From Candidatus Poseidoniales archaeon (GTDB lineage: Archaea; Thermoplasmatota; Poseidoniia; Poseidoniales; Thalassarchaeaceae), in the NCBI GenBank assembly GCA_003602515.1, contig QQSB01000064.1, positions 1,957-50,329 of the forward strand: a stretch of DNA of 48,373 nt, given 5' to 3'. Below the pieces are notes generated by a model. That model ran no database searches. It worked only from the letters and a program-made list of their open reading frames with translations, and was not told where the DNA came from. The translations under genes and the position numbers were made by a program. Shown here piece after piece: positions 20,658 to 29,948 of the stretch; position 1 is the stretch's first letter; every line of letters starts with the position of its first letter.

Positions 20658-21641
20658 GTGACTATGCCTACTGCACTGGGTAGAGGACATTGTGGCGGAC
20701 ACATTACTCTATTATTCACAGTCGAGGATGATCTGGATGATCCTATTGCACAGGGTAGCAGGGGTGCTGGTCTTTGTCTGAAGGATGGGGTGGAAGCGAT
20801 AGCGAAAGGAGAGAATGGTCGAGGAAAACTGGATGTCAGATTCCAAGATGGCGAATATGACTCTAAAATGTACAACGATGTTCTACAGGAGTTGATTGAA
20901 GAAATTCCAGAAATTGAGACATTCGATTGGGAATTAAACATCAGGATGTCTTTACCCGCATCACAGGGATTTGGAATGTCTGCTTCTGGTGCTATCGCAT
21001 CAGCGATAGCTTTCCAGAGAGCAATAGGAATTCCCCATGAAGAGTGCCTCAGGAGGTCATTCTTGATCGCCCATATTGTTGAGAGAAAGAGGTCTAGTGG
21101 CCTCGGGGATACAACTGCTCTTTCTTCGGGAGGCGTCGAAAGAAGAATTATTGCGGGATCTCCATTTTCTGGCAGTTCTCTCGACCTGGGGCCAGGAATT
21201 TCTGAAGGCTGGACCTCGGAAACACCAGTTCTTCTAGTCTGGAGCAAGAAGACTGGGAAGCATACTTCGAAATATATTGATAATCCTGATTGGAAAATGA
21301 AAATTAGCGAAGGTGGAGCATCAGCAATGGATCAAATTGGAGACGGTGATTGGGACTCAGGAAGGTGGTCTGATCTCATTAATGAATCACTAACTTTTGC
21401 TATTGTTAGTGGATTACAGTTCGATGCGTCCAGAACTGAGATTATCGATGCAGCCAGTCATGCTATCGTTGAATCTGGTCACTCAGAGAGGTTGACAGCA
21501 ATGCTTTGCATGTTGGGGGAAAGTGTCGTAATTGTCCCTAATGACTCTCTGGACGGAGATGATTGGTCAGGTGAACTATCCTCGATTCTCGAAGCTGGTG
21601 GATTCTCAACCTTCCCAAGCAAGATTGGTGCTCTGAGATAG
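20658..21641 (+). CDS. Archaeal pantoate kinase (GHMP kinase family)
   Basis: Phosphorylates pantoate to 4-phosphopantoate in the archaeal route to coenzyme A, together with phosphopantothenate synthetase. 327 residues. The GHMP ATP-binding motif is LPASQGFGMSASGAIASAIA (about 99-118), and GLGDTTALSSGGVERRI is the second conserved glycine-rich stretch. The N-terminus PTALGRGHCGGHITLLF is typical of the archaeal family (COG1829-like). Start is either GTG 20658 or ATG 20664; neither has a clear Shine-Dalgarno. It lies 33 bp after rpoD on the same strand, so it may be the last gene of that operon, linking a cofactor gene to ribosome and polymerase synthesis. Confidence 0.88.
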   Translation: MTMPTALGRGHCGGHITLLFTVEDDLDDPIAQGSRGAGLCLKDGVEAIAKGENGRGKLDVRFQDGEYDSKMYNDVLQELIEEIPEIETFDWELNIRMSLPASQGFGMSASGAIASAIAFQRAIGIPHEECLRRSFLIAHIVERKRSSGLGDTTALSSGGVERRIIAGSPFSGSSLDLGPGISEGWTSETPVLLVWSKKTGKHTSKYIDNPDWKMKISEGGASAMDQIGDGDWDSGRWSDLINESLTFAIVSGLQFDASRTEIIDAASHAIVESGHSERLTAMLCMLGESVVIVPNDSLDGDDWSGELSSILEAGGFSTFPSKIGALR

Positions 21642-21645
21642 TTTC

Positions 21646-22698
21646 TCAGGATTTAGAATTCTCATGAAAATCCTCAAGCGGTTTCAAGTCGAGAGGGCTG
21701 GAATCTAGTTTTATTGCCCCCCTAAGTCTTAGTCCGTCACAGAACCCATGTCGGTAAACAAGAGCCCCCTGGCCGTATTCTGCGACATACCTGTCTACCT
21801 GCTTCTGAGTCTTCTTCTTTGGGAACTTTAGATCGGCACCGAAGAAGTGCTTTGCATCGATCCATGCACAAGGGACTCCATTTATTCTTACATCATCCAA
21901 GAGAAGAAGATCTGGGGTGATTATTGCCCTGCCTTCTTGCTTAGTCTGCTCCTTCAGTAATTCTTCCTGGCGACGGAATCGAATACCTACTGATTCGAAA
22001 TAGCTACACAGGATCTCCTCGAAGACCTCGGCCGCGGTCTGAGTCTCGGTTTGATTTACCGAACTGACCCTATCTACTGACTCTGCCAATTCGAACTGTT
22101 CCCTGTCTCTTTTGTTTAACTTAGAAGGGTTCTTGTTTAGTGTATCCTTGATTCTAGTTTTTGTCCATCCTCTGCCTGTAAGTATGGCTCTGAAAGTATT
22201 TACTGGAGGTGCATCAAACCTCTTGGAAAGGGCAATTACACTTTCTCCGGAGTCGTACCTCCTACTGAGTTCATTGGATCTACGCATCAATTTTGAGTGA
22301 GAATAAACGCTCTTTTCCTGATTTAGCGCCGCTCTTAGAGAAAGAGCCTGTTCGAGGGTAATTGGCATACCGTCGAGTTTAGCAGCAATCTCCTGGACCC
22401 TTTCCTCGGGAAGGAAGCCGAATTCTCCGGGAATACACGCTATCTTCCCGGCCTTTCTTTGAACATCCTTGGTGACTGCTTTAGTTTTCCATTTGATTTC
22501 CACTTTCTCTGGAGGTGGACTGATTTCTTTTGGTATCCCCATAGGCCTAGGATTAGCGGTAAATCTTGCTAGGGCCCTTTCAATCTCCTCCGATTTGGCA
22601 CCTCTTCCGTTCTCCTTTGGAAGGTTATTTTCCTTCCTCGGACGTCGGCGGCGCCTCCGACGCCCCCGGCGTCGCTTGGCACTCTCGTCTTCACTCAA
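21646..22698 (-). CDS. TPD-motif nuclease-fold protein, archaeal homologue of eukaryotic CDIN1/C15orf41
   Basis: 350 residues. The first 22 are almost all Arg/Lys (RRRGRRRRRRRPRK), a likely nucleic-acid-binding tail. About 135-185 resembles a helix-turn-helix unit (SRRYDSGESVIALSKRF, NTFRAILTGRGWTKTRI). About 225-320 is the TPD domain: IITPDLLLL (D263), WIDAKHFFG (279-287) and YGQGALVYRHGF (308-319). These match the order and spacing of human CDIN1 (TPD..., WIESK..FG, ..GLVIYWYGF), whose domain is predicted to be PD-(D/E)xK-like. D263 and D281-x-K283 would be the active-site set. The start is TTG at 22698 with no good Shine-Dalgarno, so the N-terminus is tentative. It follows the DCC gene by 46 bp in the leuS direction. 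Biochemical role is unknown in archaea. Confidence 0.75.
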   Translation of the reverse strand: MSEDESAKRRRGRRRRRRRPRKENNLPKENGRGAKSEEIERALARFTANPRPMGIPKEISPPPEKVEIKWKTKAVTKDVQRKAGKIACIPGEFGFLPEERVQEIAAKLDGMPITLEQALSLRAALNQEKSVYSHSKLMRRSNELSRRYDSGESVIALSKRFDAPPVNTFRAILTGRGWTKTRIKDTLNKNPSKLNKRDREQFELAESVDRVSSVNQTETQTAAEVFEEILCSYFESVGIRFRRQEELLKEQTKQEGRAIITPDLLLLDDVRINGVPCAWIDAKHFFGADLKFPKKKTQKQVDRYVAEYGQGALVYRHGFCDGLRLRGAIKLDSSPLDLKPLEDFHENSKS

Positions 22699-22744: not shown

Positions 22745-23089
22745 TTACTTCCTCATTCGAGCGTAGACGTCGTAGAAGTAATCTCTAATTGGCCATGGTA
22801 CAAGTACCATCGAAGAGGCCAAAGGCCACGGAAATCTCAGCTTTCCACATAATCTCCAGATTGCTGCACTCTTGGAGTACCAATCCCCTCTGCTAGAAAT
22901 TAGGAAAATGGAATCGTGATCAGCGAGCATACTTGGGATCGCTTGCATAATTTCTTCACCTTCAGGGCTATTCTGCCCGATCAGCGTAATACTTGATTCT
23001 GAGTTTCTCCTCCTGATGAATTCAGCCCACCTATTGCATTTCTTACATTGGTCGTCGAAAAGGACGATATCGGATTTTCCAGAAAACAT
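22745..23089 (-). CDS. DCC-family thiol-disulfide oxidoreductase-like protein (DUF393)
   Basis: About 115 residues from ATG 23089. IVLFDDQCKKCNRWAEFI carries the DxxCxxC signature that names the DCC family; the fold is thioredoxin-like with a CxxC redox pair. The conserved WYSKSAAIWRLC segment and C-terminal 'PIRDYFYDVYARMR' also fit the family (YuxK-like). The ORF track starts at 23104, overlapping leuS, but AGGTGT 4 nt before ATG 23089 supports the shorter form starting 8 bp after the leuS stop. It is thus probably in one transcript with leuS. Physiological substrate is unknown. Confidence 0.82.
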   Translation of the reverse strand: MFSGKSDIVLFDDQCKKCNRWAEFIRRRNSESSITLIGQNSPEGEEIMQAIPSMLADHDSIFLISSRGDWYSKSAAIWRLCGKLRFPWPLASSMVLVPWPIRDYFYDVYARMRK

Positions 23090-23092
23090 ACT

Positions 23093-23098
23093 ACACCT
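23093..23098 (-). promoter_or_regulatory. Shine-Dalgarno deciding the start of the DCC protein
   Basis: Minus-strand AGGTGT overlaps the leuS stop and lies 3-4 nt before the ATG at 23089. It favours this start over the upstream one at 23104. Confidence 0.55.
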
Positions 23099-25952
23099 AA
23101 ACAAACGCTATTCCCGGTTCTAAAGGGAAGGATATTCTAGACTTTCCTCCAACATCTTCTCCTTCCCCGGCAACATAAACCTCAACTGATTCAACTTCTA
23201 AGGCAGATGCTATGAAATCAGAGTTATCCTTGATTACTTCTGCCTCGTTAATACCCTTAGAAATTATTTCTCTCTCGCCATCTAACCAGGTGTGTATTCT
23301 GCCCCTAGTCTTCTTCCCCCCAATAGTGATTGAGTTCCAGGTCTGGAAGACTTCGCCTCTCGTTGACTCATCCTTGAATGCCTCCAGCGACTTTACGTGA
23401 GACTGGCCCTTTTCCTTGAAATCAAAATCGTCTTTGTGTAGTTTGATTGCCTCTGATGCTAAGTCTTTTTTCCATTGTGGAGAGGTTTGAATGACCACCT
23501 TGGTGATTTCATTATCCGAGTGTCTTTCTGCAAGAGTTCTGAGATTCCTTCCGCTCGAGATAATTTTTTTGATGAAATTCTCTAATGCTAAGACTAGGGT
23601 ATCACCAGGATTTGGCTCAAGAATAGGCATCACAAGCTTAGCCAGGATATCGGCATGACCGACTTTCCTCCAAAATTCTTCAGCAATATGGGGTGTGGCT
23701 GGTGCTAGCATAGGTATCCATCCCTTCAAGAATGTCATTGCAGTGACTCGATCACGCCCTCCTCTTCGGAGATACCAATTCCAATCTGATAGCATCTCGA
23801 AGTGACTAATCATCACTCCCTCTCGAAGGCTAACATCGGACATGACCTCGATCCATTTCTCCTGACTGGCCCTCATTCTTGACATAAGCCAATCATCAAT
23901 ATCAGAAGGGTAATCTGAGAGTCCTACTGCTGAGTCAACTGCATCGATAAGGGAGAACATCTGACGGTGGTTTGCCTCTAGAGCACTGTCTGACCATTCC
24001 ATTCCTGCCTCTGGGTTTGCTCCAAACAGAATGAAAAGCCTGACTGTATCGGCTCCGAATCTAGAAATCATCTCCTCTGGACTTACCGTATTTCCTAGAG
24101 ACTTACTCATCTTTGCTTGACGTCTTGAGAGGGGTTTTCCACAGGAGGGACAATCTAAATCAAAGTTGTCTACGTGATACTCCGAGTTACAATCGACGCA
24201 GTAAGGAGCAGGGGCGTTGAGCATCCCCTGACACACCAGCCTGCTGAAAGGCTCTCCAACTTCATTCATCCCTGCGTCTCTAGAGAATTTCGTAAAGAAT
24301 CGAGCATAGAGAAGGTGCATTACTGCATGCTCGATTCCTCCGATATAGAGATCAACTCCATCTCCCATCCAGTAGTCGACTACTTCACGGTTGAAGGGAG
24401 ATGTCTCATTTTTTGCATCACAAAATCTCATGAAGTACCATGAAGAGTCGTAGAATGTATCCATTGTGTCAGTCTCCCTCTTTGCATCTCCCCCACAGGA
24501 AGGGCAGTTAGTCTGAACAAAGGAATTGTGAGATTCTAATGGGTTACCACTCTGATCTTCGGAAAAGACGACATCTAACGGGAGTTCCACTGGCAAGTTT
24601 TCTCTGGGGACAGGGACGACACCACAGGACTTGCAATGGATCATGGGGATTGGAGTCCCCCAGAACCTCTGTCTGCTCAGTAGCCAATCCTTCAGTCGGT
24701 ACTCTACGGTCCCATAGCCGTGCTTCTTCACCTCAAGAGCGTTAATCACTGCATTCTTTGCATCATCTCCAGAAAGTCCGTCGAAACCCTCCACTGGTGA
24801 GTTGATCATTGGTCCATAACCTTCGAAGGCCCTGACTGGTGGAGAAGTAGGGGCTAGTTCCTCATTTTCCTGAAGGACTTGTCTAATCTCGAGATTGTAG
24901 GCTTTGGCAAAATCGAAGTCTCTCTGATCATGTCCTGGGACTGCCATTACCGCACCGGTACCATACGAAGCGACCACGAAGTTACCGGCATAGATAGGGA
25001 TCTTTTCACCGTTCATTGGATTTATTGCGTGCCTACCTAGGAATACCCCCTTCTTTTCCTTGAGCATGTTGATTCTCTCGAATTCTGACATCTTTGCACA
25101 TTCGTCTCTCAGGTTCCTCCACTGCTGCTCCCATTCGGTTCCCAAGCACAACTCCTCACAAAGAGGGTGCTCGGGAGATAGAGTTACGAAAGTAGCTCCA
25201 AAAATTGTGTCGGGTCGAGTGGTGAAGACCCCGATTAGTGAGTCGGAGTCTATGACTGGAAAATCAATATGCGCTCCGTGTGAACGGCCGATCCAATTTC
25301 TCTGCATCGCCTTGACATTTTCCGGGAAGGAGATTCTATCGAGTTCGTCGAGTAACTCATCGGAATACTCTGTCATTCTTACGAACCATTGGGCCATGTC
25401 TCTCTGAACTACTTCCAATCCACATCTCCAGCACCTATTGTTCTTGACCTGCTCATTAGCCAGAACTGTATCACAGTCAACGCACCAATTTACTGGGGCC
25501 ATTCGTCTTTCGATCAGTCCACTCTCATTTAGAATGAGAAACATCTCCTGGTTCCAGCGATAGTAGTCGACATTGGATGTAGCTAGGAATCGTCTCCAAT
25601 CGTATGAGTAACCCATCCTTTCCTGATCGGAACGTATGCTTGAGATATTGCTATGAGTGACGTCATTTGGGTGACCTCCATCCTTTTTGGCAGCATTCTC
25701 AGCTGGCATACCAAACGAGTCGTACCCCATTGGGTAGAGTACATTTTTCCCCATTAGCCGTTGAAAGCGAGCCATCGCGTCTCCGATAGAGTAGTTTCTA
25801 ACATGTCCCATGTGCATGTGACCAGAGGGATATGGGAACATCTCGAGGCAGTAGAACTTGGGCTTTGACTCGTCTATTTCGGCCTCGAATACCCCTGCAT
25901 CGGACCATTCCTTCTGCCAACGCAATTCTATCTCTTGTGGGTCGTACACCAT
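23097..25952 (-). CDS. leuS: Leucyl-tRNA synthetase, bacterial type
   Basis: Class Ia synthetase charging tRNA-Leu; 951 residues, longer than most bacterial enzymes. FPYPSGHMHMGHVRNYSIGD holds the HIGH motif (HMGH, about 43-52), and KMSKSLGN is the KMSKS loop. CVDC...CWRC is a zinc knuckle. The editing domain (TTRPDTIFGATF, GTGAVMAVPGHDQRDFDFA) is inserted after that knuckle, as in bacterial LeuRS. MAQWFVRMTEYSDELL and MQRNWIGRSHGA are also bacterial-type signatures, while archaeal/eukaryotic LeuRS differs in insertion point and sequence. This points to replacement of the archaeal enzyme by a bacterial one. It heads a minus-strand unit with the DCC and CDIN1-like genes. Confidence 0.97.
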   Translation of the reverse strand: MVYDPQEIELRWQKEWSDAGVFEAEIDESKPKFYCLEMFPYPSGHMHMGHVRNYSIGDAMARFQRLMGKNVLYPMGYDSFGMPAENAAKKDGGHPNDVTHSNISSIRSDQERMGYSYDWRRFLATSNVDYYRWNQEMFLILNESGLIERRMAPVNWCVDCDTVLANEQVKNNRCWRCGLEVVQRDMAQWFVRMTEYSDELLDELDRISFPENVKAMQRNWIGRSHGAHIDFPVIDSDSLIGVFTTRPDTIFGATFVTLSPEHPLCEELCLGTEWEQQWRNLRDECAKMSEFERINMLKEKKGVFLGRHAINPMNGEKIPIYAGNFVVASYGTGAVMAVPGHDQRDFDFAKAYNLEIRQVLQENEELAPTSPPVRAFEGYGPMINSPVEGFDGLSGDDAKNAVINALEVKKHGYGTVEYRLKDWLLSRQRFWGTPIPMIHCKSCGVVPVPRENLPVELPLDVVFSEDQSGNPLESHNSFVQTNCPSCGGDAKRETDTMDTFYDSSWYFMRFCDAKNETSPFNREVVDYWMGDGVDLYIGGIEHAVMHLLYARFFTKFSRDAGMNEVGEPFSRLVCQGMLNAPAPYCVDCNSEYHVDNFDLDCPSCGKPLSRRQAKMSKSLGNTVSPEEMISRFGADTVRLFILFGANPEAGMEWSDSALEANHRQMFSLIDAVDSAVGLSDYPSDIDDWLMSRMRASQEKWIEVMSDVSLREGVMISHFEMLSDWNWYLRRGGRDRVTAMTFLKGWIPMLAPATPHIAEEFWRKVGHADILAKLVMPILEPNPGDTLVLALENFIKKIISSGRNLRTLAERHSDNEITKVVIQTSPQWKKDLASEAIKLHKDDFDFKEKGQSHVKSLEAFKDESTRGEVFQTWNSITIGGKKTRGRIHTWLDGEREIISKGINEAEVIKDNSDFIASALEVESVEVYVAGEGEDVGGKSRISFPLEPGIAFV

Positions 25953-27224: not shown

Positions 27225-29948
27225 TCACTCGGTCTTGTCTATCCTACGGGACGAGACGCCCCTCGACTGCATTTCTTTCTGTACGGTTCCAGGTGGCAGA
27301 GTCCCATTCTGCTCCAAAGCGGAAAGTGCGGCTATCACTATGCTATTTGTGTCGATTTCAAAGAATGTACGCAGCGCTTCTCTGGAATCTGAGCGACCGA
27401 ACCCCTCGGTTCCTAGGACAACGTATCGTCCACCAACCCATCTTTGAATCATCTCAGGGACTGAGGAGATGTAATCTGATGTTGCTATTGTCGGAGTTTC
27501 ATCTCCAAAACATTCGGAAACGTATGGTATTGATTTACTTCCGGGATTGAGTCGCTTCTTCCTCTCGTGTTCCATTCCTAAGCGTCGAAGTTCCCCGTAG
27601 GAAGTGACCGACCAAACTTCCGATTCGACAGCATGGTCACGCAGTAGTTCTGTGGCGGCCTCTCTTACTAGATTCAGTATCGGACCAGAACCTAGTAATC
27701 TCACCTTAGGGCCATCTCCCGATGTCTCTTCGAGAAGATATGCGCCTCTGATTATTCCTTCATCGGTTCCTGCCGGCTTTGGCATCTGCTGTTGATTCTC
27801 ATTGTAGAGCATTATGTAATGGAACACGTCAAGATTCTTGCCCCACATCTCATCGATACCATGTCTAATTATTGTAGCTAATTCGTATGCATAAGAAGGG
27901 TCCCATGCTCGACAGTGAGGGACTGCGGAGGCCGTAAGGAGGCTGTGGCCGTCTTGATGCTGTAATCCCTCACCATTCAGTGTCGTTCGACCTGCAGTTG
28001 CTCCCATGAGGAAGCCTCTGGCCCTAGCATCGGCGGCACTCCAAATCTGATCACCTACTCTCTGGAAGCCGAACATTGAGTAGAACGTGTAGAATGGAAT
28101 TGTTGGAGAGTTCGCGTTAGAGTAAGAAGTTGCGCTAGATATCCATGAGGCTATTGCTCCAGCCTCGGAGATTCCTTCCTGAAGCACCTGACCAGAATCA
28201 GATTCCTTGTAATTCAGAAGCATCTTATGATCGACAGGCGTATACTTCTGCCCCTTTGATGCAAATATTCCGAACTCGCTGAAGAGGGGGTCCATTCCGA
28301 AGGTCCTTCCTTCATCAGGAATGATAGGGACGACCTTGTCGCCTATCTCCGACTTCATCAGAGTCCTCAAAAGTCGAACGAAGGCCATAGTGGTTGATAC
28401 CTCTTGTCCCTCAGGGGTTCCTCCATCGAATGCTGCATATGTTTCCTCACCTGGAAGATCTGTGATGATTTTGATTGGTCTTCTCGAAGGAAGGTGTCCG
28501 CCAAGTTTTTTTCTCTGCTCTAGCAAGTATCTGATTTCATCTGAGTCTTCTTCCAGAGATACAAATGGATTGTCCTCAAGTCTGGAGTCATCCAAGTTAA
28601 GTCCAAGTGCATCGCGGTAAGCAACAAGATCCTCGAGGCTCATCTTCTTCTTCTGGTGAGTAGAGTTTCTTCCCTCGAATGAGTCGATCCCCCAACCCTT
28701 TACGGTATGTGCTAGGATTACAGCTGGCCCATTGGATGACAGGGCTGCTTGATATGCGGAATATACCTTGATTGGGTCATGTCCCCCTCTGGTCAGTTCC
28801 TCTATTTCTGTGTCAGAGATAGAGGAACCCAACGCTTGGAGTGCTTCGCTCGCGGAGAAAAGCTCATTCCGGAACTCACTAGGAGGTAGCGTACTGAGAC
28901 GTTGCCAGTCTCCATCCGTAATTGTCTCCATCCTGTTCAACAGTTCACCATTTGTATCAAGTTGGAATACTCGGTCCCAACCGGAACCCCAGATGACTTT
29001 GATCACAGTCCATCCTGCACCTCGATATAGCCCCTCCAACTCTTGAATAATGCTGGAGTTTCCTCTAACGGGGCCATCTAATCTCTGGAGGTTACAATTG
29101 ATTACGACAACCAAATTATCCAACTTTTCTCTGCCGGCTACTGCTATGGAGGCGATTGCCTCGGGTTCATCCATCTCCCCATCACCTAGAAATGCAAAAA
29201 CACGACTCTCCGAGGTATCGGCTAGATTTCTCTGGTGGAGATACTTCCAGAATCTGGCCTGCATAACGGCACCAAGTGGTCCAAGACCCATGGAGACTGT
29301 TGGGTACTCCCAGAATTCTGGCATTAGACGAGGGTGAGGGTATGAAGAGAGGCCGTCTTCGAATGCTTCCTGGCGGAAGTTTGAGATTTGGTCAACAGTA
29401 ATCCGTCCCTCTAGGAATGCTCGGGAGTAGATTCCCGGACTAGCATGGCCTTGGATGTAAAGTGCATCTCCTATCCCATTGTGATCCTTACCTCTGAAAA
29501 CATGATTGAACCCGACTTCGTACAAAGTTGAGCTCGAGGCATAAGTGGAAATGTGTCCACCGATTCCATCCATCCTTCTGTTTGCATCAGAGACCATCGC
29601 TGCCGCATTCCAAAGAACATGATTCTGGATTTCCTTCTCAATTCCAAGATTTCCGGGATATGGTTTTTGCTGATCAATAGAAATTGAGTTCAGATATGGA
29701 GTCCTTGAGGTGGAAATGTCAATTCCAAGAGCTGTTGCCTCGGACAATAGTTCCTGAAGGAGGAGTCGGGCTCTGGAACTGCCAGAAGAAGAGGTCATCG
29801 TCCTCAATGACTCGAGCCACTCATCGGTCTCTTCTGGGTCCATATCAGGGAGGGTCTGACGAGGTTTGGATGGGGACATGTCAGCACTACTGCCCCGCAG
29901 GGCAGAATCACCAGCCAAGGCGTGTTTTTTGAATGGGTCGTCGTTCAA
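27225..29948 (-). CDS. aceE: Pyruvate dehydrogenase E1 component, homodimeric type
   Basis: 907 residues, matching the single-chain E1 of proteobacteria and actinobacteria. It decarboxylates pyruvate on thiamine diphosphate and passes the acetyl group to lipoyl-E2. RRMDGIGGHISTYASSSTLYEVGFNHVFRG is the conserved N-terminal block; GDGEMDEPEA (255-264) with NLVVVINCNLQRLDGPVRGN forms the ThDP/Mg site; EGLQHQDGHS and the transketolase C-terminal region complete it. No E2 or E3 gene is in the window. Most archaea use ferredoxin-dependent pyruvate oxidoreductases, so an AceE-type enzyme suggests bacterial ancestry and aerobic metabolism. It lies 6 bp after the GNAT gene and 4 bp before the LETM1-like gene. 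Confidence 0.96.
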   Translation of the reverse strand: MNDDPFKKHALAGDSALRGSSADMSPSKPRQTLPDMDPEETDEWLESLRTMTSSSGSSRARLLLQELLSEATALGIDISTSRTPYLNSISIDQQKPYPGNLGIEKEIQNHVLWNAAAMVSDANRRMDGIGGHISTYASSSTLYEVGFNHVFRGKDHNGIGDALYIQGHASPGIYSRAFLEGRITVDQISNFRQEAFEDGLSSYPHPRLMPEFWEYPTVSMGLGPLGAVMQARFWKYLHQRNLADTSESRVFAFLGDGEMDEPEAIASIAVAGREKLDNLVVVINCNLQRLDGPVRGNSSIIQELEGLYRGAGWTVIKVIWGSGWDRVFQLDTNGELLNRMETITDGDWQRLSTLPPSEFRNELFSASEALQALGSSISDTEIEELTRGGHDPIKVYSAYQAALSSNGPAVILAHTVKGWGIDSFEGRNSTHQKKKMSLEDLVAYRDALGLNLDDSRLEDNPFVSLEEDSDEIRYLLEQRKKLGGHLPSRRPIKIITDLPGEETYAAFDGGTPEGQEVSTTMAFVRLLRTLMKSEIGDKVVPIIPDEGRTFGMDPLFSEFGIFASKGQKYTPVDHKMLLNYKESDSGQVLQEGISEAGAIASWISSATSYSNANSPTIPFYTFYSMFGFQRVGDQIWSAADARARGFLMGATAGRTTLNGEGLQHQDGHSLLTASAVPHCRAWDPSYAYELATIIRHGIDEMWGKNLDVFHYIMLYNENQQQMPKPAGTDEGIIRGAYLLEETSGDGPKVRLLGSGPILNLVREAATELLRDHAVESEVWSVTSYGELRRLGMEHERKKRLNPGSKSIPYVSECFGDETPTIATSDYISSVPEMIQRWVGGRYVVLGTEGFGRSDSREALRTFFEIDTNSIVIAALSALEQNGTLPPGTVQKEMQSRGVSSRRIDKTE

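Follow-up and report, generated by a model that had tools for sequence, protein, structure and literature searches.

A highly derived TPD/CDIN1-family protein, with conserved putative nuclease residues, in Marine Group II archaea

The stretch of DNA analyzed here, a window of 48,373 nucleotides from a Marine Group II (MGII) archaeon whose nearest relatives are MAGs of Thalassarchaeaceae and Poseidoniales, encodes a divergent member of the TPD family, the family of human CDIN1 (C15orf41). The gene (21646–22698, minus strand) begins with a TTG codon immediately behind a stop, specifies 350 amino acids, and is under purifying selection. It appears to have descended vertically, to have undergone one strong change, and to have been frozen thereafter; the heavy change is placed at the base of MGII, and the result is the most derived archaeal form among those sampled. 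In the literature searched we found no description of this divergent subfamily, its distribution, or its contrast with Marine Group III (MGIII), all of which are new. We tentatively favor, at somewhat less than an even chance, the interpretation that the protein is a metal-dependent, structure-specific DNA nuclease of replication or repair that shares fork and flap duties with XPF/Hef.

The assignment to the TPD family, made from motifs in a preliminary description of this DNA, stands. Residues 201–325 match PF14811 (Pfam TPD, "Protein of unknown function TPD sequence-motif", the domain of human C15orf41/CDIN1) with an E-value of 3.4e-19 and a score of 69.5 bits against a curated cut-off of 27, which places the match beyond chance, and no other gene matches this model genome-wide. 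The motifs TPD (residues 261–263), WIDAKHFFG (279–287), and GQGALVYRHGF (309–319) are present as quoted there, and the numbering of D263, D281, and K283 is correct. A profile comparison of MGII with canonical archaeal TPD proteins extends over residues 129–335 (198 columns; E-value 2.2e-21) and aligns both halves of the protein, an N-terminal helix–turn–helix (HTH)-like half with helices at residues 141–175 and the TPD domain joined to it. The predicted PD-(D/E)XK nuclease domain (residues 196–335; 21694–22113, minus strand) includes the PF14811 stretch and lies within this alignment. Its conserved positions, all on the minus strand, are E227 (22018–22020), a candidate first-helix catalytic glutamate found in 27/27 canonical and 17/17 MGII sequences; the T261-P262-D263 motif (21910–21918), invariant in the canonical and MGII sets; D281-A282-K283 (21850–21858), a (D/E)xK motif that reads E-S-K in canonical members; and Q300-V-D-R-Y304 (21787–21801), a QxxxY element whose Q and Y are invariant in both sets. 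These elements are invariant in all 17 MGII representatives and conserved in 26–27 of the 27 canonical ones, with E replacing D281. Judged from sequence, E227, D263, D281, and K283 are the acidic/lysine set expected of the PD-(D/E)XK superfamily.

The MGII protein begins with an Arg/Lys-rich segment (residues 1–35; 22594–22698, minus strand) that is predicted to be disordered (pLDDT 30–46), has a mean R+K fraction of 0.36 in the matching segment of 77 MGII loci, and is found in no canonical TPD protein; the Arg-rich tail of the preliminary description therefore exists and is N-terminal. AlphaFold2, supplied for both the full protein and the domain with an alignment of MGIIb sequences alone, predicts a helical domain (residues 98–189; 22132–22407, minus strand) with helices at residues 98–108, 115–139, 141–149, 154–161, 165–175, and 180–189 and 10-residue block pLDDT values mostly of 71–96. 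The three short helices between residues 141 and 175 (block pLDDT 83–96) are modeled as an HTH-like trio, in agreement with the HTH-like middle noted earlier, and from residue 129 onward the domain can be aligned with the N-terminal half of canonical proteins. The nuclease core is modeled at low confidence (pLDDT 24–41 in the full-length model; mean pLDDT 52.6 in a separate domain model), and Foldseek searches with the predicted models returned no match. Searches of PDB sequences with phmmer and profiles gave no match, and hence no TPD or CDIN1 structure.

Canonical TPD proteins, by which we mean those of other Thermoplasmatota including MGIII and that of Methanosarcina acetivorans, share the two-part architecture and the putative catalytic residues of the MGII protein, but across 293 Thermoplasmatota genomes they score 126–168 bits against PF14811 and the MGII form about 70 (about 68–82 among its members, with 33/33 of those scanned above the cut-off). 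MGIII, which belongs to the same class as MGII and which we recognize as family f3 on the basis of kinship (same class, other order), scores at the canonical level. Canonical members have 47 columns with conservation of 93% or more; MGII keeps the residue in 20 of these and differs in 27, a number that includes the start methionine and a few loosely aligned N-terminal positions; many of the 27 are fixed to another residue. The W-x-E-S-K and V-Y-W-x-G signatures of the canonical CDIN1-like subfamily read WIDAK and VYRHG in MGII, and we therefore class the MGII proteins as a divergent subfamily; D281, A282, and R316 are fixed in 17/17 MGII representatives, and MGIII retains the canonical residues. 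The bipartition that unites MGII and MGIII has a UFBoot value of 98. The estimate for the MGII stem is 2.3 substitutions per site, which, given that such long distances are saturated, means "very long" and is no measured value, and the mean pairwise distance inside MGII is 0.65. Hjc and ERCC4 proteins of MGII score like those from other families, so the change in TPD is not lineage-wide. It had been suggested that an archaeal version may show the ancestral role of the family; this copy, with its long stem and with DAK and YRHG in place of ESK and YW.G, is the most altered of the archaeal forms sampled and so represents the ancestral form poorly.

Within MGII the gene is strongly conserved. The 80 relatives that span all or most of the protein are 67–97% identical to it, and dN/dS against close relatives, where dS is measurable, is 0.09–0.16 in the N-terminus, 0.01–0.02 in the HTH part, and 0.055–0.059 in the nuclease part. 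The gene is present in single copy in 40/40 genomes of the window's own family (f1) and 40/42 of the sister family (f2), or 80/82 MGII genomes, and searches of viral contigs and plasmids gave no relatives. It appears to be a chromosomal, single-copy housekeeping or core gene that is vertically inherited. An anti-phage defense nuclease was considered and rejected, given that PADLOC defense models do not match the protein and that the gene is neither mobile nor patchy. One record titled Chloroflexi bacterium (L025, PBEM01000001.1) carries a typical MGII TPD neighborhood and is probably a mislabeled or contaminated MAG.

The gene lies, as the preliminary description stated, behind leuS (23097–25952, minus strand; named from its sequence) and a gene for a DCC1-like thiol-disulfide oxidoreductase (22745–23104, minus strand; PF04134, E-value 7.5e-18), both of them directly upstream. 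Downstream, and convergent with it, is a gene for a pantoate-kinase-like GHMP kinase (20658–21641, plus strand). The order leuS, DCC, and TPD on one strand, followed on the other by the pantoate-kinase-like gene, rpoD, S4, and S13, is common to both MGII families, except that the DCC gene is undetected at many related loci, which makes a functional link between DCC and TPD improbable. Outside MGII the neighbors of TPD are mainly metabolic or translation genes and are inconsistent between families. The best NCBIfam match of the GHMP kinase is pantoate kinase, at 60 bits (E-value 1.5e-16) against a cut-off of 380, and the protein may be either a divergent pantoate kinase of MGII or a different kinase.

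CDIN1 mutations cause anemia in humans, and the protein has been discussed in a histone pathway. Its TPD domain occupies residues 135–265 of 281 (PMC6077826), and predicted N-terminal HTH domains precede a PD-(D/E)XK nuclease domain (PMC7261414). The MGII protein resembles it in having a TPD domain and in combining an HTH part with a predicted PD-(D/E)XK domain, and differs in an N-terminal extension of about 85–100 residues that begins with an Arg-rich stretch; the substitutions of DAK for ESK and YRHG for YW.G are measured against canonical archaeal members, and the human–archaeal likeness drawn on here comes from Pfam, PMC6077826, and PMC7092493. Orthologs in Euryarchaeota have been published, with a human–archaeal BLAST E-value of 1e-34 (PMC7092493), and archaeal orthologs are also stated in PMC6519365, so an archaeal homolog is not in itself new. 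Assays on many DNA and RNA substrates detected no nuclease activity of the human protein, either alone or combined with Codanin-1 (PMC7261414), a 2026 paper still finds no activity for it (PMC13370696), and the literature surveyed reports no metal-dependent phosphodiesterase activity for any TPD protein. Codanin-1 has been traced to eukaryotes only (PMC7092493), and no such partner is therefore expected in archaea. The histone-fold family is found in only 22/293 genomes and is undetected in the genome of the window, on which grounds we reject a histone link: the archaeal role of TPD cannot depend on a histone pathway. Given that archaeal members occur in cells where histones are undetected and Codanin-1 is not known, the question of the nuclease can be separated from that of the histone chaperone.

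In the mechanism that we favor, the Arg-rich N-terminus and the HTH-like helical domain would bind nucleic acid, and E227, D263, and D281 of the C-terminal PD-(D/E)XK domain would hold one or two divalent metals. K283 would act as the catalytic lysine, with Q300 and Y304 serving in positioning, and the protein would hydrolyze phosphodiester bonds, most likely in DNA that is branched or carries flaps, in the course of replication or repair. We infer metal binding, catalysis, a DNA substrate, and a repair role; the TPD nuclease would work alongside Hjc and overlap with duties that elsewhere fall to XPF/Hef. In support we count the PF14811 matches throughout the MGII members scanned, the profile alignment with canonical proteins, the retained catalytic set, near-universal presence, shared synteny, the absence of mobility, the bootstrap value for MGII with MGIII, an anticorrelation with ERCC4, and weak matches to RmuC, a PD-(D/E)XK family, from 6/23 canonical TPD members. 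Against it we count the inactive human protein, the low pLDDT of the core, the lack of a Foldseek match, the weakness of the ERCC4 anticorrelation, and the metabolic and translation neighbors outside MGII. At the level of families, 10 have TPD only, 18 have ERCC4 (XPF/Hef) only, 13 have both, and 2 have neither (odds ratio 0.14, p 0.02), a weak result that ignores phylogeny and was obtained with several families tried. Both are present in f2, and ERCC4 is absent in 4/4 sampled genomes of the window's genus. Families that lack TPD, Hjc, and ERCC4 alike number zero, with roughly one expected by our estimate from marginal frequencies, which is about chance. ERCC4 is patchy in Thalassarchaeaceae (f1; 12/40 genomes), although nearly all genomes of that family carry TPD and Hjc.

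A further reading, which we regard as unlikely, is that a CDIN1-family nuclease was retargeted in a single burst at the origin of MGII. The putative catalytic residues would have been kept while the Arg-rich N-terminus was gained, ESK became DAK, YW.G became YRHG, and C277, H284, R316, and H317 were fixed near the predicted active site; the resulting nuclease, specific to MGII, would have a new substrate or a new partner and possibly cover for missing XPF/Hef.

The main rival to a DNA nuclease is an RNA-processing nuclease with the same catalytic core, acting for example on rRNA, tRNA, or mRNA ends, whose Arg-rich tail and HTH part would bind RNA. Arg-rich tails are frequent among RNA binders. 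The position of the MGII gene behind leuS and near a ribosomal-protein/rpoD cluster is in keeping with this, as is a locus (L119) in which TPD is flanked by rRNA dimethylase-like and HisRS-like genes; however, neighborhoods differ between families and the MGII ribosomal cluster is encoded on the other strand. Codanin-1 is reported to resemble CNOT1 of the CCR4-NOT deadenylase in Phyre2 modeling (PMC7092493), but the human protein was inactive on the RNAs tested as well (PMC7261414), and we consider an RNA substrate unlikely.

The repeated failure to detect activity in the human protein (PMC7261414, PMC13370696) would be explained if TPD proteins were nucleic-acid binders on a PD-(D/E)XK-like scaffold whose catalysis was lost or never used, and the HTH part is indeed the most constrained region of the MGII protein by dN/dS. 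The full putative catalytic set is nonetheless invariant in canonical and MGII proteins although most other near-invariant positions have changed in MGII; that exactly these residues are kept amid change argues against a dead nuclease, and makes a pure scaffold distinctly unlikely.

A stand-in Holliday-junction resolvase is suggested by a report that C15orf41 resembles archaeal Hjc in sequence (PMC7261414). Families f3, f12, f30, f37, and f38 lack Hjc, largely lack ERCC4, and all have TPD, and PF01870 finds no match in M. acetivorans, the sole control that carries TPD. Hjc and the TPD protein share a (D/E)xK motif and a superfamily predicted in the literature, but no Pfam or profile similarity: PF01870 gives no Pfam match in the TPD protein, and hhalign E-values are 0.24–0.28. 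Hjc is moreover encoded separately in the genome of the window, as it is in 133/160 TPD-bearing genomes, TPD and Hjc are distributed independently of each other when scored per genome (odds ratio 0.92, p 0.87), and some f16 genomes have neither. We therefore reject per-genome complementarity, which at the family level gives an odds ratio of 0.21 (p 0.08); with Hjc co-present and independently distributed, TPD is not simply the resolvase, and a stand-in role is very unlikely. Together with the undetected histones, coexistence with Hjc indicates an archaeal job that is neither that of sole resolvase nor histone-dependent.

Membership in an anti-virus or Cas4-type system is highly improbable and largely refuted by distribution: a Cas4/PDDEXK_1-like gene does follow TPD on the same strand at 17 loci in 13 distinct genomes (f17, f30, f37, f38, f42; 14-base overlap to 69-base gap), but full-length relatives of it occur without TPD in f5, f24, and f29, most f17 genomes, like that of the window, have TPD but not this gene, and TPD itself has no PADLOC match and a core-gene distribution. 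As each occurs without the other, the Cas4-like gene widely so, we reject a general functional link. In the Cas4-like neighbors (L121:3928–4959 and 16 further loci, L084–L124), cysteines are conserved at each end of the protein, and an interior hydrophobic segment probably spans the membrane. Like these neighbors and other Cas4/RecB-type PD-(D/E)XK nucleases, the TPD protein has a Q-x-x-x-Y pair behind its (D/E)xK motif; unlike them, it has no four-cysteine cluster, and no profile similarity connects them.

Canonical members also exist in families that have neither Hjc nor XPF/Hef, and it is there that the strongest phenotype of TPD loss is expected. The canonical member in the genetically tractable M. 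acetivorans is a better experimental subject than the MGII form, and the MGII form reveals which residues are indispensable to the family, every putative catalytic residue among them.

Two other products of the window, judged by eye, are unusual for an archaeon: the leuS product resembles a bacterial-type leucyl-tRNA synthetase, and the 907-residue product of an open reading frame at 27225–29948 resembles bacterial-type AceE (pyruvate dehydrogenase E1).
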